Part shown: positions 483-21,151 of the stretch, piece after piece
How the letters are laid out: each line of letters begins with the position of its first letter
How positions within the stretch are numbered: the first letter of the stretch is position 1
Virus record (IMG/VR): IMGVR_UViG_3300007344_000316
Span: 1 to 21,151 of that record
Direction: 5' to 3' (one strand)
DNA from: a virus
Length of the DNA: 21,151 bases
Program-made: the position numbers and the translations under genes
The notes under the pieces: model-generated
What the model was told of the DNA's origin: nothing
Databases searched by the model: none
What the model saw: only the letters and a program-made list of their open reading frames with translations

Positions 483-665
483 ATGGAAAATCCAAAATCA
501 TTATCAGCATCTAAAGGTAACATTTTATCAGGTGCAAAGAAAGATGGGAGTAGCATACACCCTTCAAGTGCTAAACCATCAAGTTCAGGAAACTTGTATC
601 AGTACGTTCCAAAAAACGCTATTGATAAGCAAGACGTTAAATCTCACGGTAAATACGGTATTTAA
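483..665 (+). CDS. Small Ser/Lys-rich hypothetical protein, 60 aa
   Basis: This is a short soluble protein rich in Ser, Lys, Gly and Asn, without predicted membrane or catalytic features. Its end, KSHGKYGI, carries the Lys-Tyr-Gly element that recurs in the next small proteins, which supports this reading frame over an overlapping frame at 478-669. It stops exactly where the next gene starts (TAA then GTG), which also fits a compact operon. The low-complexity composition suggests a largely disordered peptide. A minor virion component or DNA-associated peptide is possible, but this is inference from composition and neighbours only. Confidence 0.55.
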   Translation: MENPKSLSASKGNILSGAKKDGSSIHPSSAKPSSSGNLYQYVPKNAIDKQDVKSHGKYGI

Positions 666-1187
666 GTGAGACAACTTTTTAGCATAGAAATGGATGGGGA
701 TGTGAAGTTGCAAGACGACACATTCCTACTCATACCTGAACTTAGGACTTTATATGAAAAACACGGTTCTAAGTACATCAGGTATGTAATCCTTATGTGC
801 GACTATAAATCTCCATACAGACAGCTTATCTTAACTAACAGGGAAAGAGAAGTCTGTTTTGACGTATGGGGGGAAGAAAAAGAAAAAGTAAAACATTTAG
901 ACTCTGAGCTTGTAATTAAAGCAAAAGAAAAATATAAGAAGCTTCAGTACGACCCAACTGTAGAACAATACTTAGTATATACTGAAAAGATATCTGAGTA
1001 CAATCAATTTCTAAGAGAGATGCCTATCGCTAAAGATAACGCAGAAATGCTTAGTAGGGTCATGAAAGCTGTAAAAGATATTACAGAAGCACGAGAAGAA
1101 TTAAAAGACCTCATCTTAAAGAAAGAAGAAGAATCTAAAATGATGGGTGGTGGAGAAGCTTCATTGTTAGAAGAAATGTTAGGATAA
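666..1187 (+). CDS. Hypothetical 173-aa helical protein near the terminase
   Basis: I do not recognise this protein. The first 70 residues look like a mixed fold (hydrophobic stretch RYVILMCDY near residue 40). The rest is strongly helical and charged, with probable coiled coil from about residue 75 to 160 and a Gly-rich end (MMGGGEASLLEEMLG). The start chosen is GTG at 666, directly after the previous stop; an ATG at 690 would shorten it by eight residues. It overlaps the next gene by one base (TAATGA). Its place four genes upstream of the large terminase and its helical make-up would fit a small terminase subunit, but no DNA-binding helix-turn-helix is evident, so this is only a candidate. 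Confidence 0.65.
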   Translation: MRQLFSIEMDGDVKLQDDTFLLIPELRTLYEKHGSKYIRYVILMCDYKSPYRQLILTNREREVCFDVWGEEKEKVKHLDSELVIKAKEKYKKLQYDPTVEQYLVYTEKISEYNQFLREMPIAKDNAEMLSRVMKAVKDITEAREELKDLILKKEEESKMMGGGEASLLEEMLG

Positions 1188-1348
1188 TGAAAACAACACA
1201 AAGTTTAAATAAACCTGAGATATCTAAAGACTTGATTAAGTCTAAGCCACAATATTCTACGTCAAAGAAAAAGAAAAAACATCGTAAGCAAAAGACAGGT
1301 GTTACTGCACCTTACGGTACTTACGGAACAATATCTGAATACTATTAA
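1187..1348 (+). CDS. Lysine-rich microprotein, 53 aa
   Basis: This very small gene begins at an ATG that overlaps the previous stop by one base (TAATGA), indicating coupled translation. The product is highly basic in the middle, with a Lys/His/Arg run at about residues 27-36 (SKKKKKHRKQK). It ends in a Gly/Tyr segment, APYGTYGTISEYY. No fold is recognisable; it is probably disordered and could bind nucleic acid by charge. The overlap, the absence of any other good frame across 1187-1348 and the family-like Tyr-Gly tail support it as a real gene. Confidence 0.55.
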   Translation: MKTTQSLNKPEISKDLIKSKPQYSTSKKKKKHRKQKTGVTAPYGTYGTISEYY

Positions 1349-1358
1349 ATTAAATAAT

Positions 1359-1601
1359 ATGAAACCAAATCAGAAAACTGAAAAAGGAGTTACCATAGTA
1401 TCTGACTATAGTGGTAATAAAGTTAAGTACGGTAAGGTAAAAGCTGAAGGTAAACCAATGTCAACTTACGATAAAGCTATGGAAGCTATGAAAGTTCCAA
1501 GCACTAAGGTTGAGAATACTGTAAAGAAATCAGCTAAACCTGTTACTAAAACAAATACAGGTGGTAAGTACGGAAGTAAAAACTCACGCAAAAGAAATTA
1601 A
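1359..1601 (+). CDS. Basic Gly/Lys-rich small protein, 80 aa
   Basis: I chose the ATG at 1359 rather than one at 1299. The earlier start would overlap the preceding gene by 50 bases and add a 20-residue piece of different composition, and 1359 follows an A-rich leader. The protein is lysine-rich: an N-terminal part with possible strands (GVTIVSDYSGNKVKYGKV), a central helix-like part (TYDKAMEAMK) and a basic tail GGKYGSKNSRKRN. That tail is close to GGMLGSKNKTKHRG in the next protein, suggesting duplication or a shared functional peptide. The next gene begins two bases after its stop. Function unknown; possibly a DNA-associated or packaged virion peptide. Confidence 0.6.
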   Translation: MKPNQKTEKGVTIVSDYSGNKVKYGKVKAEGKPMSTYDKAMEAMKVPSTKVENTVKKSAKPVTKTNTGGKYGSKNSRKRN

Positions 1602-1603
1602 TT

Positions 1604-1888
1604 ATGGGATTATTTGACAAAAGAGTTATGACTGACGATGATATGTCATCAGCTCAATTTAAGGGAGAAGATAAAAAGTTCTATAAGAAAAAGAAAAAGT
1701 CTTTTAAAAGCCAAGGTATGGATAACCGTACTGCTAAACGTATGGCAGGAGAAGACCAAGAAGATACTACAATCACTTATGGATACGGTGGTAAAATCAA
1801 ATATAAAAACGGTGGTATGCTTGGTTCTAAAAACAAGACTAAGCACAGAGGTAAGACTACCAATGGTGGTTACGGAAACGGAATGTAG
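1604..1888 (+). CDS. Basic protein with Gly-Gly motifs, 94 aa
   Basis: The N-terminal half is charged and probably helical, with a Lys run at residues 28-33. The C-terminal half is a Gly/Tyr/Lys sequence with three Gly-Gly elements: YGYGGKIKY, KNGGMLGSKN and TNGGYGNGM. No enzyme motif, cysteine or membrane segment is present. It is the only gene of the block that clearly ends with TAG; reading through would add only a few codons before another TAG, so this is an ordinary stop. The Gly-Gly-Lys/Met pattern recurs in the next protein and in the giant virion protein at the window end. Function unknown. Confidence 0.6.
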   Translation: MGLFDKRVMTDDDMSSAQFKGEDKKFYKKKKKSFKSQGMDNRTAKRMAGEDQEDTTITYGYGGKIKYKNGGMLGSKNKTKHRGKTTNGGYGNGM

Positions 1889-1890
1889 TC

Positions 1891-2343
1891 ATGGGATATG
1901 TAGGATTTAAAAAACTCGCACAGCAAGTAGGCTCTAAAAAGTTAGCAGCGTATATTGGTCGTAAGAAGTACGGTAAAAAGAAATTCCAAGAAGCTGCTGC
2001 TAAAGGCAAGAAGATGGAAGGAATGAAGCCAAAGAAGTATGCTGAAGGTGGTAAGTTTAAATCCCCTGCTTGGACACGTAAAGAAGGACAAAACCCTAAA
2101 GGTGGCTTAAACGCTAAAGGTAGAGCATCTGCAAAAGCAGAAGGTAGTAACCTTAAAGCTCCTGTTAAATCAGGTACTAATCCTCGTAGAGTTTCATTTG
2201 CTGCAAGATTTGGTGGAATGAAAGGAGCTATGAAAGACTCTAAAGGAAAACCGACTCGTAAAGCTTTAGCTCTTAGAGCGTGGGGGTTTAGAAGTCCTGA
2301 ATCTGCAACAGCGTTTGCTAATAGACATAAAAAAAGTAAGTAA
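1891..2343 (+). CDS. Basic phage protein, DUF6321-like
   Basis: This is a strongly basic 150-aa protein. The N-terminal part (residues 1-35) contains AAYIGRKKYGKKKF, a module I recall from other environmental phage proteins. Residues 46-54 carry the element KKYAEGGKF. Residues 55-148 resemble a small phage family I recall as DUF6321: SPAWTRKEGQNPKGGLNAKG, then PRRVSFAARFGGMKG, then KGKPTRKALALRAWGF, then a helix ending in KKSK. That family has no firm function; its charge suggests nucleic acid contact. The stop overlaps the terminase start by one base (TAATG), so the two are probably translated together. This is the best recognised of the small basic genes. The family name is from memory. Confidence 0.7.
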   Translation: MGYVGFKKLAQQVGSKKLAAYIGRKKYGKKKFQEAAAKGKKMEGMKPKKYAEGGKFKSPAWTRKEGQNPKGGLNAKGRASAKAEGSNLKAPVKSGTNPRRVSFAARFGGMKGAMKDSKGKPTRKALALRAWGFRSPESATAFANRHKKSK

Positions 2344-4217
2344 TGTTAAAGTATAGTCCTGTCATAAGAGATGGTATTCCAAACCTAAAGAAAGGTTCTA
2401 AAGAATATTTAAACTATTGGTCAACTCAAATAGACAGGTGTAAGAATGGATATAAACCATCAGGTGGTGTGCATATCACAGGTGCATATTACTTTTATTT
2501 AAACTTTTGCAAAATCCTTGCAAGAGATGAAAACACAAACAGAAAAAAATTACAAGCTCCTTGGTACAGAGACCTTGACCATGAATATTTTGATAAGGTC
2601 TATGATTGTAAAGACAAAGGGAGAGGTCTCATTGTACTAAAAGCAAGGGATAAAGGATTCTCGTATATGAATGCTAACTTAGCTTTATATGAATGGACAT
2701 TCTTTGCAAATAACGAAATAGGTGTAGGAGCAGCTACTCCTTCCTATGTAAGCTCTGTAAGAACTAAAATCCTAAACAGTTGGAACAAGTTACCACCTGA
2801 ATTAAGAATCAGAAAAGATTTAAAGGATAATGATGTTATAATGCAGTCAGGTTATCGTATTAAAGAAAACGGTACTTGGGTAGAGAAAGGATTAAAATCT
2901 ATATTACATTACAGATGTATGGATAACCCTGACGCTTTCAGGGGGGAGCGTTTAGGTATGATGATATTTGAAGAAGCAGGAGAGATGAAACAACTCATTC
3001 GTGCTTATATATCTTCCGAACCATGTTTCAAAGATGGTGCTGTACAGTTTGGTGTTCCTGTTATAGGGGGTACTTCCAACGTAATGAATAAAGCAGATGA
3101 CTTCATGAAGATGTGGTATGAACATGAAACATACAATCTTGAACAATTCTTTATTCCTGCATCAAAAGCATTATATGGTTTTTGGAACGCAAAGACAGGA
3201 AAGTCAGATGAACCTGCAGCAAGACAACACTTTGAGGAACGTAGAAAAAAACTACGCTCAAGTAAAGATAAATCTGCTTATTACCTTCACTTACAAGAAT
3301 ACCCATTAGAGCCTGAAGATGCTTTCATGCAATCTAATAAGTCTCCGTTTGATTTAGAGAAGCTAAATGGACAAATAGGTAACATACTTTCAAGTACAAA
3401 AATGCAAGGTATGATACAAAGAGGTAGGCTTGTTTGGAAAAATAGAAGTAAATTTGAAGTTGAATTTCATCTTGACCATGATGGAGATGTACTAATTTTA
3501 GAACACCCAAGAAAGGACATTTTGAATTTAGATATAGGTGCAGTAGATAGTTATTATCAAACAGAAGCACCAAGCTCTGACTCTAAAGGTTGTGCTATAA
3601 TCTTTCGTAGATGGCACGATAAAATAGAAACAGAGACAAACTTACCAATAGCTATGTACGTAGATAGACCGTACACAAAAGATATTTGGTATGAAAATAA
3701 TTTAAAACTCGCTGCGTATTACAATGCAAAGCTATTAGTCGAATACACAGATGAAATGTTTTTTGATTATTTTGTAAAACAGAAAGCTACTAAGTTTCTA
3801 AAAGAGAGACCACTCTCTGCAGATGCTCCTTGGGGTAGAGTAGCTAATAAGTTTGGTGTACACATGAAATCTTATCAAAAGAATCTTTTGGTAGAGTACA
3901 TTGATGAGTATATCAAAAAAAATGTAGAAGGTATTTACTTCCTTGAGCTGTTAAAGGACTTAGCAGACTTTGGGATAAGAAATACCGATTTAGCAATGGC
4001 ATTTGGTATTGTGCTAATACATGATTCCGATAATGCTAATTTAAGAATTATGAACGCAGATGAAAAAACTGAAAAAGACAGTTACTTTTTACCCACTTAC
4101 GAAATGGGTTCAGATGGTATCATGCGTGTAAATAATAATAGAAATAAGGGTTATAATTCAAAGAAGTATGACCCATTAGGTTTAGGAATTAATAAAGGAT
4201 TATTAGGTAATTTATAA
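2343..4217 (+). CDS. terL: Terminase large subunit (DNA-packaging motor)
   Basis: This protein cuts concatemeric phage DNA and pumps it into the prohead through the portal. The N-terminal ATPase half shows a variant Walker A, KARDKGFS (residues 100-107), a Walker B with catalytic acid, MMIFEEAGE (206-214), and a coupling motif IGGTSN (241-246). The common linker motif EYPLEPEDAF follows at 319-328. The C-terminal RNase H-like nuclease half has three acidic sites: NLDIG (Asp397), LLVEYTD (Glu467/Asp470) and NTDLAMAFG (Asp549). The length of 624 residues suits a complete fused motor. A Gly/Asn-rich tail ends in GINKGLLGNL. It overlaps both neighbours by one base. No clear small subunit is recognisable. 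Confidence 0.93.
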   Translation: MLKYSPVIRDGIPNLKKGSKEYLNYWSTQIDRCKNGYKPSGGVHITGAYYFYLNFCKILARDENTNRKKLQAPWYRDLDHEYFDKVYDCKDKGRGLIVLKARDKGFSYMNANLALYEWTFFANNEIGVGAATPSYVSSVRTKILNSWNKLPPELRIRKDLKDNDVIMQSGYRIKENGTWVEKGLKSILHYRCMDNPDAFRGERLGMMIFEEAGEMKQLIRAYISSEPCFKDGAVQFGVPVIGGTSNVMNKADDFMKMWYEHETYNLEQFFIPASKALYGFWNAKTGKSDEPAARQHFEERRKKLRSSKDKSAYYLHLQEYPLEPEDAFMQSNKSPFDLEKLNGQIGNILSSTKMQGMIQRGRLVWKNRSKFEVEFHLDHDGDVLILEHPRKDILNLDIGAVDSYYQTEAPSSDSKGCAIIFRRWHDKIETETNLPIAMYVDRPYTKDIWYENNLKLAAYYNAKLLVEYTDEMFFDYFVKQKATKFLKERPLSADAPWGRVANKFGVHMKSYQKNLLVEYIDEYIKKNVEGIYFLELLKDLADFGIRNTDLAMAFGIVLIHDSDNANLRIMNADEKTEKDSYFLPTYEMGSDGIMRVNNNRNKGYNSKKYDPLGLGINKGLLGNL

Positions 4218-6502
4218 TGGCAAAGTCAGAAGGTATATTTCCAAAGCAAAACATTCCTGATTCATTGAAGACAAAGGAATGGTGTAAAGACAACATCTTA
4301 GCTATGTTGGCTTATCAGAACTACACAACCAAGTTTAATCGTGAAAGAAAAAAAGATTATGAGAACTATTTACTCTACAATGGAGTATTTGACACTAAGC
4401 AGTTTGAATATGTCACTAATACTTATGGTATATCCTCTCCTGCAAGGTTGGTTAATCATCCAATTATTGCTCCTAAAGTTGATTTATTGGTTGGAGAATT
4501 TATGTCTCAACCTATGGACTTCATGGTCGAAGCAGTTAACGAAGAAGCTATCAACCAAAAATTGGATAGAAAGGTATCGTTGGTTGCCGAGAAAGTATTA
4601 AGAGGTTTACGTAAAGAGTTATCAGAAGAACTTGGTGTTCAGTTTGAGGATGAAGATATGGGTATTGAGATACCTGACGATATTGACAAGTTCCTAAAAC
4701 TAAATGGTCGTATGCAGGTAGAACAACTTGTATTTGTTGGTCTTAGACACTTAATAGAAAAATACAGGCTACAACACTTATTCAAGCAAGGTTTGTACGA
4801 CTTATGTATTACTTCTAAAGAATTTTACCATTGCTCAATTAAGAATGGAGACCCACACGCACGTAGAGTTGACCCTCGTTCATTGATATGGGATATTAAC
4901 TCTGATACAGAAAACTTACAAGACGCATCATGGGTAGCAGAAGAAAGATTCTTATCAATAAACGAAATTCTTGATGAGTATGGAGATATGCTTACGCAAG
5001 AGCAAGTAATCAAGATAGAGGAAATGAGGTATCAAGGACAAGATACTTTACAAAGATATAACAAGCCTTATCAATGGTACTACAAAGATGACCACTTAAC
5101 ACCATTAAGAATTAGATGTGTCGTAGGTGTATGGAAGTCTATTAAAACATTAAATGTTAAAGTCAGTCCTAATAAATACGACCCAAGCCTTCCTTTTAAA
5201 AAGATTCTCCCTGAGAATTACAAACCTAAGAAAGGAGAAAAGATAGAAAAGAAATCGTTTACGCATATATGGACAGCTACAATGATTGGTCATGATATTA
5301 TTGTTGATGCAAGACCATTACCAAATCAAATAAGAAGAGAAACTAATTACTCTGAAGCTCCATTACCATACGTAGGGATTATTAAAAATAACATTGACAG
5401 TATTACATTATCTATTGTAGATAGCTTAAAGAACATTCAGTTGTTATACAATATAGTAATGTATCACATAGAGTTATCACTCGCAAGGAGTGGTGGTAAA
5501 GCAGTAGTATATGATACATCTCAAAAACCTAACGGATTATCGTTAGATGATGTATTCTATCATGCTAAGAACTCAGGGGTTATTCCTATTAACACAAAGC
5601 AAGAAGGTAATCAAGTAGGTGGGTTTAACCAATTCCAACAGATTGACTTTACATTATCAAATTCTGTACAGCAACTAATTAATTTAAAAATTATGTTAGA
5701 AGCTACAGCAGAACAATTAACAGGTATTAGTAGAGCAAGAGAAGGGTTTACTAAATCAGATGCTGTAGGTGTTAACGAAAGAAGTGTGATGCAATCATCA
5801 TTAATTACTCAACCATTAATTGCTAACCATGTTAGAGTAATGGATATGGTAATGAACCAACTTGGAGATTTAATGAAAATTGCTTGGGCAGATGGAACTA
5901 AAGTAGTTCACTTTATGGGAGAAGCAGGAGCACAGATGATGAAGATGATTGGAGATTTTAAAAACTTTGATTATTCAATATTTGTAAAAAACTCTTCTAA
6001 AGACAGAAAAGACAAAGAAAAGATAGAAGCTCTTGGTACACAAATATTATCAGGTGCAGGTGCAGAAGGATTCTTACAAATGCTTAAAGTATTAAACGCA
6101 TACAATGCAAAAGATGCAGAGACAATCTTAGAGCAAGGTTTAGAAAAAATCCAAGAGTCACAAAAAGCACAGCAAGAGCAAATGGCTCAAGCACAACAGG
6201 CACAAGCTGAAGCTACTCAACAACAGACTCAAGCACAAATGCAAATGAAACAGATGGAACTTCAAACTAAAGTTCAAATTGCAGAGATTGATGCTAACGC
6301 TATTCTTGAATCTACTCGTATGAAAATTGAGGGTGGACAAGAAACTCAAGACTACAGACAGAAACATGATGCTAATATGGCAATGCTTCAAGCTGAAAAC
6401 GAATTGGGTAAAAAACGAGCTGAAAAAGATATGCAACCTGTTGAAGAGCAACAACTAACAGAGAATAAAAAAGGAGAGAAAGAACAAAATAATAAAAATT
6501 AA
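4217..6502 (+). CDS. Portal protein
   Basis: The portal is the dodecameric ring at the capsid vertex through which DNA enters and leaves; it docks the terminase and later the tail connector. At 761 residues it is long, as in crAss-like and related short-tailed phages. Features include ARRVDPRSLIWD near residue 215, a core with LPYVGIIKNN and two long helices around residues 395-430 and 480-520, and an AEQLTGISRAREG segment typical of the portal stem and wing. The last ~125 residues are Gln/Ala/Met-rich and probably coiled coil, a likely barrel facing the capsid interior. The ATG overlaps the terminase stop by one base. Position between terminase and capsid genes supports the call. Confidence 0.88.
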   Translation: MAKSEGIFPKQNIPDSLKTKEWCKDNILAMLAYQNYTTKFNRERKKDYENYLLYNGVFDTKQFEYVTNTYGISSPARLVNHPIIAPKVDLLVGEFMSQPMDFMVEAVNEEAINQKLDRKVSLVAEKVLRGLRKELSEELGVQFEDEDMGIEIPDDIDKFLKLNGRMQVEQLVFVGLRHLIEKYRLQHLFKQGLYDLCITSKEFYHCSIKNGDPHARRVDPRSLIWDINSDTENLQDASWVAEERFLSINEILDEYGDMLTQEQVIKIEEMRYQGQDTLQRYNKPYQWYYKDDHLTPLRIRCVVGVWKSIKTLNVKVSPNKYDPSLPFKKILPENYKPKKGEKIEKKSFTHIWTATMIGHDIIVDARPLPNQIRRETNYSEAPLPYVGIIKNNIDSITLSIVDSLKNIQLLYNIVMYHIELSLARSGGKAVVYDTSQKPNGLSLDDVFYHAKNSGVIPINTKQEGNQVGGFNQFQQIDFTLSNSVQQLINLKIMLEATAEQLTGISRAREGFTKSDAVGVNERSVMQSSLITQPLIANHVRVMDMVMNQLGDLMKIAWADGTKVVHFMGEAGAQMMKMIGDFKNFDYSIFVKNSSKDRKDKEKIEALGTQILSGAGAEGFLQMLKVLNAYNAKDAETILEQGLEKIQESQKAQQEQMAQAQQAQAEATQQQTQAQMQMKQMELQTKVQIAEIDANAILESTRMKIEGGQETQDYRQKHDANMAMLQAENELGKKRAEKDMQPVEEQQLTENKKGEKEQNNKN

Positions 6503-7559: not shown

Positions 7560-8945
7560 ATGAAATTTCACACAGGTTCATACGGAAAGGATACTATCGA
7601 AAACAATGCGTTAGTAACTAACTTATTAAAGTATCCTGAGATTAGTAAAGCACTAATCAGACAATTCCCTCAATACTCTTTAACTTACTTCTTAGAAGGA
7701 ACAGGTCGTTTCGCTAAAGAAGAGTTAATTGGAGATTCAGCATTTAAGTGGGCAATCTTAGGGAGATTGAATAGACCATCAACTGCATCTGCTAACAACG
7801 GTACATCTCCAACTATTGTTGGTGCTGCACACGCTGCTTTTGGAGTTGAGTTCATTGAGAACTACTTAAATAAAAATGATGTTATTCGTTTCAAAGATGG
7901 TTCATCTGCAATCATTTTAGATAACGGTACAGCTACTGCAGGTGGTACTACTTACCAAATGAAGTTACAAACAAATGACGCTGCTGCTACTATTGATTTA
8001 GGTATCGTTGCTGCTGCAGGAGAAACTGTTAACACTCAAGGTTCAGTATTTGAAGAAGGTTCATTACAAGGGTACGAAAACCACGTATTCCCTGATTGGT
8101 ATGTAAACCACTTGACTACTTCTCGTAAGGCTAAGTCAATTACAGGTACAGCTTTGACTGATGTAACATGGATTGAAAACAACGGACAAAGATTATGGTA
8201 CTTCACAGACCAAAACTTGGTTATGGAAGAGTATTTATACCAATTAGAGTTATCAAGATGGTATGGTAAATCTACAATGGATGCTAACAGCGTTGCTCAA
8301 GTAACAGATGCTGCAGGTAACCCATTAGTAGCAGGAGATGGATTGTTAGCACAAATCTCTTCAGCTAACTCTGACACTTACTCAGGTACATTAACTGAAG
8401 ATATTATCGTTGATTTTATTGCTAACTTGAGCTTAAACTCAGGTAAGAAAAACAACCAATGGATGGTATTTACAGGTACTGCAGGTAAAGTAGCGTTCCA
8501 CAAAGCGATGAGAGATTTAATCTTCCAAGGTTCTTCTTTAATCTATGATATGGATTCAGCAAGAAACTTAGAGTTAGGTGTTCACTACACTACTTACAAT
8601 GCTTTAGGACACAGAATTACTTTAGTACATTGTCCAATCTTTGACGACCCGAATTTACATACTGACTTAGACCCTGTTACAGGTTACCCTAAAGAGTCTT
8701 ACAGAATGGTATTCATGGACATGGGAGTAACTAACGGTATCTCTAACGTAGAAGTTAAGGTTAAAGGTGCAGGTGGAGTTGACAGAGGTATGATTGTAAA
8801 ATACATCCCTGGTATGGTTAACCCATTTGACCAAAAATCAATGGTAGCTTCTAACGCTAAAGATGGATTCACTTGTGAGGTATTATCTGAAAGTGGATTG
8901 ATTGTTAGAAACCCATTATCATGTGGACAATTAAGAAAGGTGTAA
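7560..8945 (+). CDS. Major capsid protein (HK97 fold)
   Basis: This builds the icosahedral shell. At 461 residues, directly after the probable scaffold, it has the make-up of an abundant structural protein. Its codon use looks richer in AAC, TTC and TAC than the neighbours, as expected for high expression. The N-terminal arm is followed by helical and strand segments; residues 105-165 look like a beta-rich insertion (KNDVIRFKDGSSAIILDNG). The segment QWMVFTGTAGKVAFHKAMRD (about 300-319) resembles the HK97-type spine or P-domain helix region. A C-terminal strand region, VDRGMIVKYIPGMVNPF, resembles the end of phage capsid proteins. No delta-domain cleavage site is obvious. Confidence 0.8.
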   Translation: MKFHTGSYGKDTIENNALVTNLLKYPEISKALIRQFPQYSLTYFLEGTGRFAKEELIGDSAFKWAILGRLNRPSTASANNGTSPTIVGAAHAAFGVEFIENYLNKNDVIRFKDGSSAIILDNGTATAGGTTYQMKLQTNDAAATIDLGIVAAAGETVNTQGSVFEEGSLQGYENHVFPDWYVNHLTTSRKAKSITGTALTDVTWIENNGQRLWYFTDQNLVMEEYLYQLELSRWYGKSTMDANSVAQVTDAAGNPLVAGDGLLAQISSANSDTYSGTLTEDIIVDFIANLSLNSGKKNNQWMVFTGTAGKVAFHKAMRDLIFQGSSLIYDMDSARNLELGVHYTTYNALGHRITLVHCPIFDDPNLHTDLDPVTGYPKESYRMVFMDMGVTNGISNVEVKVKGAGGVDRGMIVKYIPGMVNPFDQKSMVASNAKDGFTCEVLSESGLIVRNPLSCGQLRKV

Positions 8946-12024: not shown

Positions 12025-12442
12025 TAATGGTGTGTACGATATAGTTAGGCTTTACGACCTAATTAAAGATTCTCTAAATGAGGAATTAAAAGAAAATGGA
12101 TTTAGACCAATAGGACTAAGAAACTTTAAGCAAGTAGTTAAACACTACTTCAAACATATATTTAACAGAGTCGTATATAAGTACGAGACTGTAGAGTTGT
12201 ATGACAGGTTTGGTACTGTTACAGGTAACAAAAAACTGTGTACAGACTTTAACCCAAGATATGTAGATGTTAACAAGACAGATGGTTACTTTTACTTTAT
12301 CTTATGGTTAAGACCAAAGAAGTATAGAAAGTGGGCATTTTTTCCTGCACCAATATGGAAGAAGCGTCAGTTTCAAAATGTTAGAGATAATAAGGGAGAT
12401 TACCCTGAAGTTAATGAGATGACTTATGGCTTTTACAACTAA
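12005..12442 (+). CDS. Hypothetical 145-aa tail-module protein
   Basis: I do not recognise this protein. It is basic and rich in Tyr, Phe, Lys and Arg, with helices at about residues 10-55 (IVRLYDLIKDSLNEELKENG, then FKQVVKHYFKHIFNRVV) and an aromatic-rich C-terminal part (FYFILWLRPKKYRKWAFFPA). The chosen ATG at 12005 overlaps the previous gene by 20 bases; a GTG at 12032 is a shorter alternative. It overlaps the zinc-ribbon gene by 17 bases at its end. Sitting between two ring-like genes, it probably helps build the tail. It is small enough to be an assembly factor rather than a structural ring. Confidence 0.6.
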   Translation: MTENKYNNGVYDIVRLYDLIKDSLNEELKENGFRPIGLRNFKQVVKHYFKHIFNRVVYKYETVELYDRFGTVTGNKKLCTDFNPRYVDVNKTDGYFYFILWLRPKKYRKWAFFPAPIWKKRQFQNVRDNKGDYPEVNEMTYGFYN

Positions 12443-12584
12443 AGAAGAAGCAAAAAAAAGACTTGATATATGCAGGTCTTGCGACAGAGTAATTAAGGCT
12501 ACTTTGACTTGTAAAGAATGTGGATGTTTTATGAAAGTAAAAACAACATTAAAAACAGCAAGGTGTCCAAAAAATAAATGGTAA
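12426..12584 (+). CDS. Zinc-ribbon microprotein, 52 aa
   Basis: This short gene has six cysteines: C16xxC19, C29xxC32xC34 and C47. The motif CGCFMKVKTTLKTARCPKNKW is a pattern I recall from a family of tiny phage zinc-ribbon proteins (similar to DUF6171), so four of these cysteines probably hold a structural zinc. It starts inside the end of the previous gene and its stop lies one base before the next ATG, confirming a compact operon. Its job is unknown; short zinc ribbons can bind nucleic acid or proteins. Whether it is part of the virion cannot be told. Confidence 0.8.
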   Translation: MAFTTKEEAKKRLDICRSCDRVIKATLTCKECGCFMKVKTTLKTARCPKNKW

Positions 12585-17875: not shown

Positions 17876-20800
17876 ATGGCAAAGTTTTCACAAACACAAG
17901 ATATTATAAGAAACGCACCTGTAGAAAAACGTGCAGAGTTAGGAAGAGTAAAAGGTTTTGCTAACTTTTCTAACTTCATGGCAGGTTTAGATGCTTATGG
18001 AAGACCATTAAAAGGTGGTGCTAAATTTGGCAGTAAAGTAGCAGCTACATTAAACCCTTTTATGTTTGCAAGTACAGCAGCTGTAAAAAACAGGTATCAA
18101 GGAACTGCTGTAGGTGCAAAGAATATGAAACAAGCCAATAAGGCTTACATAGAGTCTTTAAAAAACAAAGCTGAAATTGCTTTAACTATTGCTACAGCAG
18201 GTGGTTTTGGTGGAGCTAAAGCAGGTGTAAAAGGAGCTGTTGAAGGAGCTAAAGCTACTAAGGGTGTTATTAAGTCAGTTAAGGCAGCTAAAGAAGGATT
18301 TAAAGCAGGTACTACTGCGTTTAAAGCATCTAAACTTGCAGCTAAAGCAGCAGCTAAAGCAGGAACTACAGCAGAGAAAACTGCAACTGCTTCAACAATA
18401 GCAGGTAGAACAAAACTTGCAGCAGACCCTACGATAGGTACAGCTGTTAAACTTACTGAACCATCAAAAGGAACAACTCTTATAGATTGGGCAGCAAGTG
18501 CAGGTAAAACTCCTTTATCAGAAACATTTAAAGTAGCACAACAACCTGTTGTAAAAGTAATGGATGAAGCTTTAACAACACCATTAAAAGCATTGCCTAA
18601 AATTGTTGAGCCTACAAAGATTGGTAGAATTTTAAAAGCTACTAATTTATTATCTGATGACGAGCTTACTTTAGTAGATAAGTTTCTTGCTAAGAGAAAA
18701 TCTTACCCTGATGAAGGGTTTAAAAAGATTGCTGCTGACTTTACTAAAGAAAATAAAGACAAATTATCTGAGGTTGCATTAAAAAGAAGTCAACAAGCAA
18801 TCAAAGAAGCTTGGAAAAAATACGAAGAAGAGAATCCTGAATACAACAGAACAGAAAGAACAAAAACTGTTCAAGAAGATAGAGGTAGTAATGTATATGA
18901 TAAATTTGGTGTAAAACCTATGATGTTTAAAAAGGGTGGAATGGTAAGAGGTAAATCTCATGCCGAAGGTGGTGAAAAAGCTACTATTGGAGATACTCAG
19001 ATAGAGGTAGAAGGAGATGAGAGAATCTTCTCTAAGGAAGACACTAAGTCTATGGATAGAGATGCAGAAGCAGGAAACTATACAGCACTTGGTAAAAAAT
19101 ATGCTGCTGCTAAAAATAGACACGATAAAGCAGAGCAAGACGATTACTTTGAAGGAGGTGGTAACACAGGAGAAGCTGAAAAAACTACTGAATCTAAAAC
19201 TAAAGATTTGAATTGGGCATATACACAAGCTGCTCTTGCAGGTGCTCCATATCCACAAGTAACTGCTGCTCAATGGGCATTAGAATCAGCAAGAGGTAAT
19301 AGTACAATAGCTCGTGAACATAACAACTATTTTGGGATTAAGTATGATGAAAGAGCTGCTGAAAGATTAAGAGCAAAAGGTATAAACGTAAGAAGTTCTT
19401 CTGAATTTAAAAAAGATGGTTATTATGATAAAATGGAAAAAAAGAGTGCTGACTATATGCACTTTGATAATCCTGCAGATGCGTTTAGAGCACACCAACT
19501 TTTTTTAGAAACTAATCCAAGATATGCTGAAGCTTTAAAAGCTGATAATGCTGTTGACTACGCAAAAGGATTAAAAGCAGCAGGATATGCTACAGACCCT
19601 AATTACGCTAATAAATTAATAAACTTTTTCGGAACAGAATCTCAAGCTAAAGCTAACTTTGGAGAAGTTGTTTTAGAGCCTAAAAACTTAGCTACTCAAA
19701 GTGCTAATCAAGTTACATTAAAAACTGTTACAGAGCAGGATATTGTACAGAGAACTATTGAAGGTCTTGACCCTGACTTAAAAAGAAAGTATCAGGCTTA
19801 CAAAGCAAATCAATCTTATACTGATGTTTATGCTGAAAAGTTAATGAAGGATAAATGGAATTACCTTCGTAAAGAAAGCAATAGCTATAAAACATGGGAA
19901 AAAGAATCAGGGTTTAAAGACGCTGAAGATGAAATGAAAAAGCTTGATATTTGGGAACAAAAAATTAATGATGAATTTAAAACATGGAAAGATAATACAG
20001 GTTTCTTTGAAACTGCTACTTTAGATAAAATGCCTATAAGTGAGCTTACAATGTTATATCCTGAATTAATTCCTGATGAATATAAAGGTAAAGATGGTAA
20101 TCTTTCTCCTGTAGAACTTGTTTCTGCTATTAGAGCACAGAAAAAGAAAGCTCATATAAAACGTAATGATATTTACGCTAAAAGAATGACTGAAGCTGCA
20201 CCTAAACTTTTAGATGACGCTTACAAAGCTTTAGGTTCTATAAAAAATTCTCCTGAGTTTAAAGCTATGTCTGTAGAAAAACAGGCACAAGTTATTGAGA
20301 ATTTACAAAAACAAATCAAAGAATTTAAACAACTTGAAAATCAAGCAAAATATTATAATGAATCATCTAAAAAAGCAAGATTAGCAAGAAATTCTAAGGC
20401 TGCTCAACAAATGGGTAAAGATGAATTTATAAAAGAATATGAAGATATTGTAGAAGCAGGTAAGTTAGCGTATGCTGTTGGTCAAGGTGGTGTTTCTTGG
20501 GCAGCTACTCGTGGTCAAACTGCAAATGTTTCAAGAGATGCTGATAAAATAAACATCGAACAAGGAGATGCTTTTTTTGATAAAAAATTTACTTACTTAA
20601 ATATTGGAGATGAATTTAAAATTACTCAAGATGAAAAAGATGCTTTTAAAGGTAGAGAGTACCGTACAGAAGAATTAATAAAATCTGAGTACAATGTAGA
20701 AAACATTAAAAGAGAACAGGAAGCTGAAGCTCAGAGAGAGCAACGTATTGATGAGATATTACGAGAAGCTGAAGAAGTTGAAGATGCTCAAGATACAAAA

Positions 20801-21151
20801 TATGATGCCGAAACAGAAGAAGAAATAGATACATCTTTATTTAGTGATGCTCAAGTGCAAGAGTTCTTAAATAGAAAAGATGAGCAAAGAGCATCTACAG
20901 GTCTTGCAGGTATATACGAAAAGTTTAAAGGTGCAGACCAAGTATTACAATTTGCAGGTATGTATGGTGCTTATAAATCTGCTACAGAACCGTTACCTGA
21001 ACAAAGAAAGTCTCAACAATGGCAAGACTACATGAGTACAATGAAACAACGTGCTCAATCAGGTATTGCTCCTGAAACTAAAACATTGTTACAAAGACAA
21101 GCTGAAAGAACTTACGCTTCAGATGTTGCAAGTATTGGTAGAATGGCTACA
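17876..21151 (+). CDS. Giant virion/cargo protein with GH73 lysozyme domain, partial
   Basis: The frame stays open to the window end (1092 residues, 3' end missing). Residues 94-175 form an Ala/Gly/Lys-rich amphipathic region that could line or cross a membrane. Residues 350-385 carry FKKGGMVRGKSHAEGGEKA with IEVEGDERI, a GGxxxGxSHxxGG element seen in Bacteroidota phage virion proteins. Residues 450-590 match FlgJ/GH73 glucosaminidases: QWALESARGNST with likely catalytic Glu470, NNYFGIKY (483-490), FLETNPRY and GYATDPNYANKL. The remainder is helical and charged, with a final SQQWQDYMSTMKQRAQSGIA-type segment common to phage internal proteins. It probably travels in the virion and digests peptidoglycan at entry. 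It follows the muzzle gene by 29 bases. Confidence 0.8.
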   Translation, partial: MAKFSQTQDIIRNAPVEKRAELGRVKGFANFSNFMAGLDAYGRPLKGGAKFGSKVAATLNPFMFASTAAVKNRYQGTAVGAKNMKQANKAYIESLKNKAEIALTIATAGGFGGAKAGVKGAVEGAKATKGVIKSVKAAKEGFKAGTTAFKASKLAAKAAAKAGTTAEKTATASTIAGRTKLAADPTIGTAVKLTEPSKGTTLIDWAASAGKTPLSETFKVAQQPVVKVMDEALTTPLKALPKIVEPTKIGRILKATNLLSDDELTLVDKFLAKRKSYPDEGFKKIAADFTKENKDKLSEVALKRSQQAIKEAWKKYEEENPEYNRTERTKTVQEDRGSNVYDKFGVKPMMFKKGGMVRGKSHAEGGEKATIGDTQIEVEGDERIFSKEDTKSMDRDAEAGNYTALGKKYAAAKNRHDKAEQDDYFEGGGNTGEAEKTTESKTKDLNWAYTQAALAGAPYPQVTAAQWALESARGNSTIAREHNNYFGIKYDERAAERLRAKGINVRSSSEFKKDGYYDKMEKKSADYMHFDNPADAFRAHQLFLETNPRYAEALKADNAVDYAKGLKAAGYATDPNYANKLINFFGTESQAKANFGEVVLEPKNLATQSANQVTLKTVTEQDIVQRTIEGLDPDLKRKYQAYKANQSYTDVYAEKLMKDKWNYLRKESNSYKTWEKESGFKDAEDEMKKLDIWEQKINDEFKTWKDNTGFFETATLDKMPISELTMLYPELIPDEYKGKDGNLSPVELVSAIRAQKKKAHIKRNDIYAKRMTEAAPKLLDDAYKALGSIKNSPEFKAMSVEKQAQVIENLQKQIKEFKQLENQAKYYNESSKKARLARNSKAAQQMGKDEFIKEYEDIVEAGKLAYAVGQGGVSWAATRGQTANVSRDADKINIEQGDAFFDKKFTYLNIGDEFKITQDEKDAFKGREYRTEELIKSEYNVENIKREQEAEAQREQRIDEILREAEEVEDAQDTKYDAETEEEIDTSLFSDAQVQEFLNRKDEQRASTGLAGIYEKFKGADQVLQFAGMYGAYKSATEPLPEQRKSQQWQDYMSTMKQRAQSGIAPETKTLLQRQAERTYASDVASIGRMAT

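Follow-up and report, generated by a model that had tools for sequence, protein, structure and literature searches.

A variable slot for small basic protein genes beside the large terminase gene of a marine-type crAss-like phage

The capsid internal proteins IPI-IPIII of phage T4 are small and basic, are made together with the head genes, and are dispensable. Here we analyzed a cluster of small basic protein genes packed against the gene for the terminase large subunit (TerL) in IMG/VR virus record IMGVR_UViG_3300007344_000316, which was taken in its entirety (21,151 bases) and is called the window below. The products of this cluster are like IPI-IPIII in size, charge, association with head genes, and dispensability, a likeness of general traits that was not drawn from sequence.

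Other described phages have comparable arrangements. In Methylophilales phage MEP401 (Zobellviridae), as in the window, small basic genes (gp49-gp46) lie directly upstream of TerL, although TerL, portal, and major capsid protein (MCP) of MEP401 have no BLASTP similarity to those of the window or of its close relative L001 (relatives are given by their L numbers). A gene of the DUF6321 family comes first in a trio in MEP401, as in L001, whereas the window keeps the DUF6321 part alone. In T4-type cyanophages, gene cluster 119 (SSM1_115 of phage S-SM1) is a series of short basic modules, the last of which is DUF6321, and sits between gp16 and gp17, much as the small genes of the window sit before TerL. 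However, SSM1_115 is a single 495-aa protein instead of separate genes, and further genes, some of them metabolic, precede gp17. The crAss001 gp16 family occupies the same place before TerL as a 173-aa protein of the window, with 164 aligned columns. Among the gut phages examined, what lies between gp16 and TerL varies: genes of 106-116 aa (Steigviridae), lysine-rich genes of 52-79 aa (Suoliviridae), a homing endonuclease, a tRNA, or nothing.

The gene content of the window identifies it as a Crassvirales fragment. Its MCP (7560-8945) matched the Crassvirus capsid model PF23898 (Crass_capsid) at 2.3e-51 in a Pfam profile search, and PHROG profiles gave the Crassvirales head and packaging order TerL (phrog_6681), portal (phrog_6547), MCP (phrog_11589). 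TerL (2343-4217; phrog_6681, 1.3e-78) was less than 60% identical to any entry of the phage collection, with Crassvirales records as the best tblastn matches (29% to cr6_1). The window phage is a marine-type crAss-like phage, distant from the gut genera.

Small coding genes in a variable slot

In the window, four small genes fill the interval between a conserved three-gene block and TerL. It is very likely that the locus consists of real genes in a variable slot that takes part in exchange and adjoins a candidate for the small terminase subunit (TerS). The block contains an acidic 80-aa gene (228-470, net charge -7) as its conserved start, a 60-aa gene (483-665; IHPSSxKxGxGSGNLY...KYGI), and the 173-aa gene (666-1187, GTG start). 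The slot contains a 53-aa gene (1187-1348); an 80-aa gene (1359-1601, ATG at 1359) of a KYGKV...MSTYDKAM family with homologues in L001, L002, L003, and L178 and weakly in L004 and L186; a 94-aa gene (1604-1888) with the C-terminus KTTNGGYGNG[IM] and homologues in L001, L002, L003, and L178 at E below 1e-33; and a 150-aa gene with an N-terminal domain (1891-2013; GFKKLAxxVGSKxLAAYIGRKKYGKxKFQ) and a DUF6321 domain (2014-2343). All of these genes and TerL are on the plus strand, and from the 60-aa gene through TerL the intergenic spacing is -1 to +10 nt, in agreement with an earlier note on this DNA that had described the open reading frames (ORFs) of 60, 53, 80, 94, and 150 aa and the 173-aa frame as packed against TerL.

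Omega (dN/dS) was calculated against L001 (97% TerL identity) and the more distant L178 and L002, and against MEP401 for DUF6321. The acidic 80-aa gene gave 0.19-0.37, and the two other block genes gave 0.09-0.24 (60 aa) and 0.04 (173 aa). In the slot, the values were 0.21-0.37 for the 80-aa gene (against L178 and L002), 0.20-0.24 for the 94-aa gene, and 0.31 (L001) and 0.15 (MEP401) for DUF6321, while the 53-aa gene differs from that of L001 by two changes, both synonymous. The single value above 1 (1.85, for the 80-aa slot gene against L001) was based on 8 substitutions. Because orthologues keep their frames in relatives and omega was 0-0.37 for every gene in the informative comparisons, we conclude on this sequence evidence that the small frames are protein-coding genes. 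The earlier note had named loss of the frames in relatives, or dN/dS near 1, as what would speak against it; the conservation and the omega values instead ruled out spurious ORFs.

The small basic proteins have pI values of 9.7-11.0, and lysine runs are present in the 53-, 94-, and 150-aa proteins. The same note had called the proteins rich in lysine, glycine, and tyrosine. Lysine is indeed abundant (15-23%) and glycine ranges from 6 to 16%, but tyrosine (3-9%, against 6% in TerL) is not generally enriched. A single paralogous family was rejected, as mutual similarity among the small proteins was weak (E 0.004-0.03 without composition correction). PHROG and Pfam profiles gave nothing below E 0.1 for the 60-aa and 80-aa proteins.

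The gene order beside terL, which the earlier note had proposed to compare, was followed with profile searches in 84 crAss-like TerL loci, 80 of which could be scored for the slot with a simple ORF caller, near-identical copies being counted. The anatomy was recovered in the relatives: the slot was empty in 53 of the 80 and held one or more genes in the other 27. The five small genes had been taken as one set interrupted by the 173-aa gene, a grouping that the comparison did not bear out. The 60-aa gene (homologues at E 1e-15 to 1e-35) forms one syntenic block with the 173-aa gene and the acidic 80-aa gene (homologues at E 1e-29 to 1e-37 in 8 crAss-like relatives), conserved throughout the window's clade, and the variable slot is made of the four genes that follow. 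K+R was 0.20 or more in 96% of 75 slot genes (40-300 aa) but in only 9% of 500 other ORFs of the same size from the same loci, and net charge differed between the two groups with a Mann-Whitney p of 2e-31 (near-copies retained). In the TerL tree the filled state appears in two separate clades (the window's and L283-L311), which needs at least 2 changes, and all 25 sampled members of the two clades have a filled slot. Within the window's clade, the slot has one gene in L181 and L182, two in L002 and L178, four in the window, and six in L001 and L186. Thus, with an empty slot in so many relatives and with contents that differ within each clade, the slot genes are accessory and not core parts of the motor.

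This distribution also bears on whether the slot proteins are accessory terminase subunits or regulators, whose place between TerS and TerL would reflect joint action with the motor. The slot does lie between the TerS candidate and TerL; the S-SM1 DUF6321 protein is similarly placed between gp16 and gp17, and many filled loci of the sister clade have a member of a 72-aa family ending in KYG immediately before TerL. Nevertheless, the relatives that lack any slot gene have the same TerS/TerL pair, so that the suggestion of a required role with the motor was not upheld, and the same protein families are found by unrelated TerLs and also far from terL. We therefore consider a terminase-accessory role improbable.

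Genes of other kinds occur in the slot as well. A putative inner/outer spanin pair occupies the slot in L186 (6243-6901), and also in L185 and L252; its 72-aa member has one membrane segment and its 147-aa member a lipoprotein-like start. The slot admits large genes too, since genes of 852 aa (L283, 1696-4254) and 1062 aa (L289, 1073-4261) lie between the TerS candidate and TerL. The sister-clade slot contains DUF6321, a phrog_14910-like protein, and further short modules that occur fused in SSM1_115. In the empty-slot relatives L187 (387-1472), L188 (1473-2246), and L190 (4086-4940), a Lys-rich protein of 257-361 aa with a hydrophobic stretch is encoded upstream of the TerS candidate.

DUF6321 and exchange among marine phages

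The C-terminal part of the 150-aa protein, previously called DUF6321-like, is a full member of the family. It matched PF19846 with E 1e-20 and 74.6 bits, against a curated cut-off of 28.5, over positions 2-72 of the 72-position profile, and phrog_4689 with 6.6e-26. Thirteen residues are invariant among 22 diverse DUF6321 sequences (G72, L73, G77, R78, K89, P91, R99, S102, F103, R106, G112, R123, and W131), and the window member has this core. In the window this domain is fused to a crAss-clade N-terminal domain and lies directly before TerL. No function is on record for DUF6321, and a literature search for it returned no paper naming the family; that the small genes as a group have no recorded function was also as the earlier note had it. 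DUF6321 as a cellular family was rejected. A search of 84,980 species genomes gave 27 matches, almost all in records titled as metagenome-assembled genomes or uncultured single-cell/bin assemblies, and the family was therefore treated as viral.

DUF6321 is predicted to be folded (pLDDT 93-96), phrog_17747, a second family found in such slots, has 27 invariant residues in 20 sequences, and the conserved residues of both families include Trp, Gly, and Phe. The predicted fold and the invariant residues point to specific contacts rather than to charge alone. A protamine-like action, in which the proteins would condense or neutralize DNA through charge alone, could account for the pI values, the lysine content, and the lysine runs. 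It would leave the many invariant residues and the confidently predicted fold of DUF6321 unexplained, and it fits poorly with a slot that is empty in two thirds of the relatives; coating of DNA by charge alone, one of the earlier suggestions, is accordingly improbable. No convincing match came from sequence searches of solved structures with DUF6321, phrog_17747, phrog_14910, and the 173-aa family. With the model of the 150-aa protein, Foldseek found no PDB match up to E 10, and a second comparison, against 8 chains only, gave none with Z of 2 or more; no new fold is implied.

Comparison with L001 shows how the slot contents change. The two sequences are 95-96% identical in nucleotides on both flanks, but the alignment breaks within the 150-aa gene and again before TerL. 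The DUF6321 gene of L001 has a different N-terminus, and two additional genes lie between it and TerL. The window's own N-terminal domain is native to the clade (78% identical to L181 over 41 codons; E 1e-33 to L181/L182), and the N-terminal 56 aa of the 150-aa protein had no match in the phage collection. The DUF6321 part, on the other hand, is 86% identical to MEP401 gp48 and has a G+C content of 0.406, against 0.338 for the window. The trio DUF6321, phrog_17747, and phrog_14910 precedes TerL in the same order in L001 and in the podovirus MEP401 (gp48-gp46), with amino-acid identities of 88, 82, and 45%; phrog_17747 and phrog_14910 were not found in the window. In a weakly resolved DUF6321 tree (94 columns), the window and L001 fall among sequences of the MEP401 type and other marine ones, and the crAss-like L066 is placed elsewhere. 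Because DUF6321, phrog_17747, and phrog_14910 are common to unrelated marine phages, their sequences indicate that the slot array was partly assembled by gene and domain exchange with such phages.

The window DUF6321 gene joins TerL at a TAATG overlap, and the gene boundaries in L001 are of the same kind. Such clean junctions, together with contents that vary between close relatives, are what non-functional or selfish cassettes kept by recombination only would also produce. Given the purifying selection on each gene and the consistently filled slot in both clades, we find it very hard to credit that recombination alone maintains them.

The three families also often stand near head genes elsewhere. 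TerL was the first large gene no more than 4 genes downstream in at least 40 of the 73 loci of these families that have a large gene close downstream, TerL being counted by BLAST cluster having one scanned or annotated member, and these TerLs fall into several BLAST-unrelated groups. Some of the remaining loci have portal, connector, or MCP downstream, and in autographiviruses the families are flanked by scaffold and MCP. In 67 of 77 cases phrog_14910 was within 3 genes of phrog_17747, and isolates with this pair infect Pelagibacter, Roseobacter-group, Puniceispirillum, and Methylophilales hosts. What had been tiny hypothetical genes thus become a defined locus with a testable logic, namely a terL-partner gene and an exchange slot for basic domains across phyla.

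An 81-aa protein of L001 scored 22.5 bits against DUF5872 (PF19197), under the cut-off of 27.5, and a literature search for DUF5872 found one mere listing, in an algal virus. In L025 (4263-5168), L022 (4800-5168), L067, L077, and L085, short basic modules (HMMY...HLxLKxxGY; KASKAHAGQAK) are fused to phrog_17747, and similar pieces are separate genes in MEP401 (gp49) and L190, which suggests a larger pool of exchangeable micro-domains.

The 173-aa gene as a small-terminase candidate

The 173-aa gene, which had been seen as an interruption of the small-gene cluster, belongs to the crAss001 gp16 family and is a partner of terL. A search with the family gave 18 loci with 44-97% identity, and its profile aligned with that of crAss001 gp16 and gut relatives with a probability of 98.2% and E 5.3e-14 over the aligned columns (hhalign). 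A family match was found in 82 of the 84 crAss-like TerL loci, nearly always immediately upstream of TerL and mostly 7-18 nt from it where the slot is empty, and a gp16-family gene lies by TerL in gut Crassvirales as well.

The AlphaFold model of the protein (pLDDT 81.5) has long helices at 97-118 and 123-160 and a low-confidence tail at 161-173 with a conserved GGGxxSxLE. Its best BFVD matches were predicted proteins of the crAss-like phages cr50_1 and cr85_1, the latter of which has a 179-residue family member one gene before TerL. The helical hairpin, the conserved flexible tail, and the position fit a small terminase, and the gene is probably the TerS gene of the window, for which it is the best candidate. 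The 173-aa family is also the best TerS candidate for Crassvirales, none being named in the text of the two Crassvirales papers searched.

The sole hint of a helix-turn-helix is a weak match of residues 18-96 to 2ao9 (Z 5.6); Foldseek gave nothing at E below 1. YafO-like and immunity-like matches (E 0.035-0.055) were under the cut-off and were set aside, as were the top VIA rows for the model (Get1, ClpB, LSD1), since these covered only the hairpin at 96-170 and were read as helix geometry of a common kind. The gene that precedes TerL in Cellulophaga phage phi14:2, gp106, was the best, though weak, profile match among 164 ORFs; this weak positional homologue is without the MS/MS label borne by many phi14:2 structural proteins. 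In L007 (3009-3527) a member of the family comes after TerL, with the order reversed, and in L010 (4987-5514; cr6_1 gp96) the homologue reads through only if TAG encodes Gln, like other nearby cr6_1 genes.

Possible roles of the slot proteins

A link of the small genes to packaging, which the earlier note had proposed, is supported by their position. Because the DUF6321, phrog_17747, and phrog_14910 families adjoin TerL, portal, connector, and MCP in many unrelated phages, we tentatively favor a role of the slot proteins as head-directed nucleic-acid-binding accessories. They would be made late, together with the packaging genes, and would act at the assembling head, held at the capsid or the packaging vertex. 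In each protein, the conserved head would make a specific contact and the lysine-rich part would bind DNA, so that the proteins would be useful yet replaceable.

Two short sequences may bring such proteins to the capsid. The first is in the 53-aa protein, in which aa 4-26 copy a segment of the MCP N-terminus and a KKKKKHRKQK stretch follows. Residues 4-24 of this protein are identical to MCP residues 20-40 at 13 of 21 positions (BLASTP about 1e-5). Related MCPs carry the segment, strongly conserved, in the same place, and a pattern derived from it matched, among 1697 ORFs, MCP N-termini and the 53-aa protein only. As only 37 of 69 nucleotides are identical between the two genes, the segment is not a fresh copy. 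The second is a C-terminal Q-[HLN]-D, with which different slot proteins end in L298, L301, and L308-L311 of the sister lineage. Among 876 ORFs this ending was found in slot proteins only, bar one 159-aa basic protein upstream of the L308 TerS candidate, and when Q-H-D-stop was searched for in four records with all codon choices allowed, eight sites were found, at coordinates fitting slot genes, while the reversed pattern gave none. The codons vary (CAA/CAG, CAC/CAT, CTT/TTA, GAT/GAC), which favors selection on the peptide; the carrier genomes are related, so that the sites may not be independent. A second shared tag was considered in the window's 60-, 94-, and 53-aa proteins, whose ends are rich in YG, and was rejected because these ends are too short for such a claim. 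Should the proteins be taken into the capsid, the short ends that they share would serve as signals for loading. By analogy with encapsulins, whose cargo is loaded through a short peptide at the C-terminus, the slot might then supply capsid cargo, in which unrelated basic domains traded among marine phages are loaded by the MCP-segment copy or Q-[HLN]-D, but we regard this specific form as unlikely.

Several observations weigh against a role at the head. The MCP match is short, and its score of 58 compares with a best of 56 in 2000 shuffles (none reaching 58), with about 80-90 pairs compared. The Q-[HLN]-D end belongs to the sister lineage and is absent from the window. The virion proteome of S-SM1 has been measured (PMC3037559), and the 495-aa DUF6321-ended protein is labelled hypothetical where other S-SM1 proteins are labelled 'virion structural', record labels which suggest that it was not detected in virions. 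Finally, some loci of the D/S/W families are near lysis genes or near a switch to opposite-strand genes, away from terL.

It is conceivable, if rather less than likely, that the slot proteins are late accessory cargo outside the head, which act on host or viral nucleic acid metabolism (nucleoid, ribosome, RNA polymerase) and whose genes occupy a permissive site in the late operon. The S-SM1 annotation would agree with this, and because the slot is shared with the putative spanin pair (L186, L252) and the large genes of L283 and L289, position is no proof of role. In HMO-2011 (L201), gp61 (4886-5968), annotated as a methanesulfonate monooxygenase, separates the S-type from the W-type small gene a few kilobases ahead of TerL. 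The families are spread over phages whose hosts belong to different bacterial phyla; if the proteins act on the host, this spread would suggest that their target is universal. Such a role outside the head does not account for the D/S/W families remaining near head and packaging genes in many unrelated phages, or for the copied MCP segment and the C-terminal end that slot proteins share, which would indicate a common viral receptor.

Two further genes were observed elsewhere in the window. A 52-aa protein (12426-12584) with two CxxC pairs (CRSC...CKECGC) is a probable small zinc ribbon. An open-ended ORF (17876-21151, at least 1092 aa) has an endolysin-type domain (phrog_3513, phrog_1309) and also carries a GGMVRGKSHAEGG module resembling one in a 906-aa protein of L098 that itself bears DUF6321.

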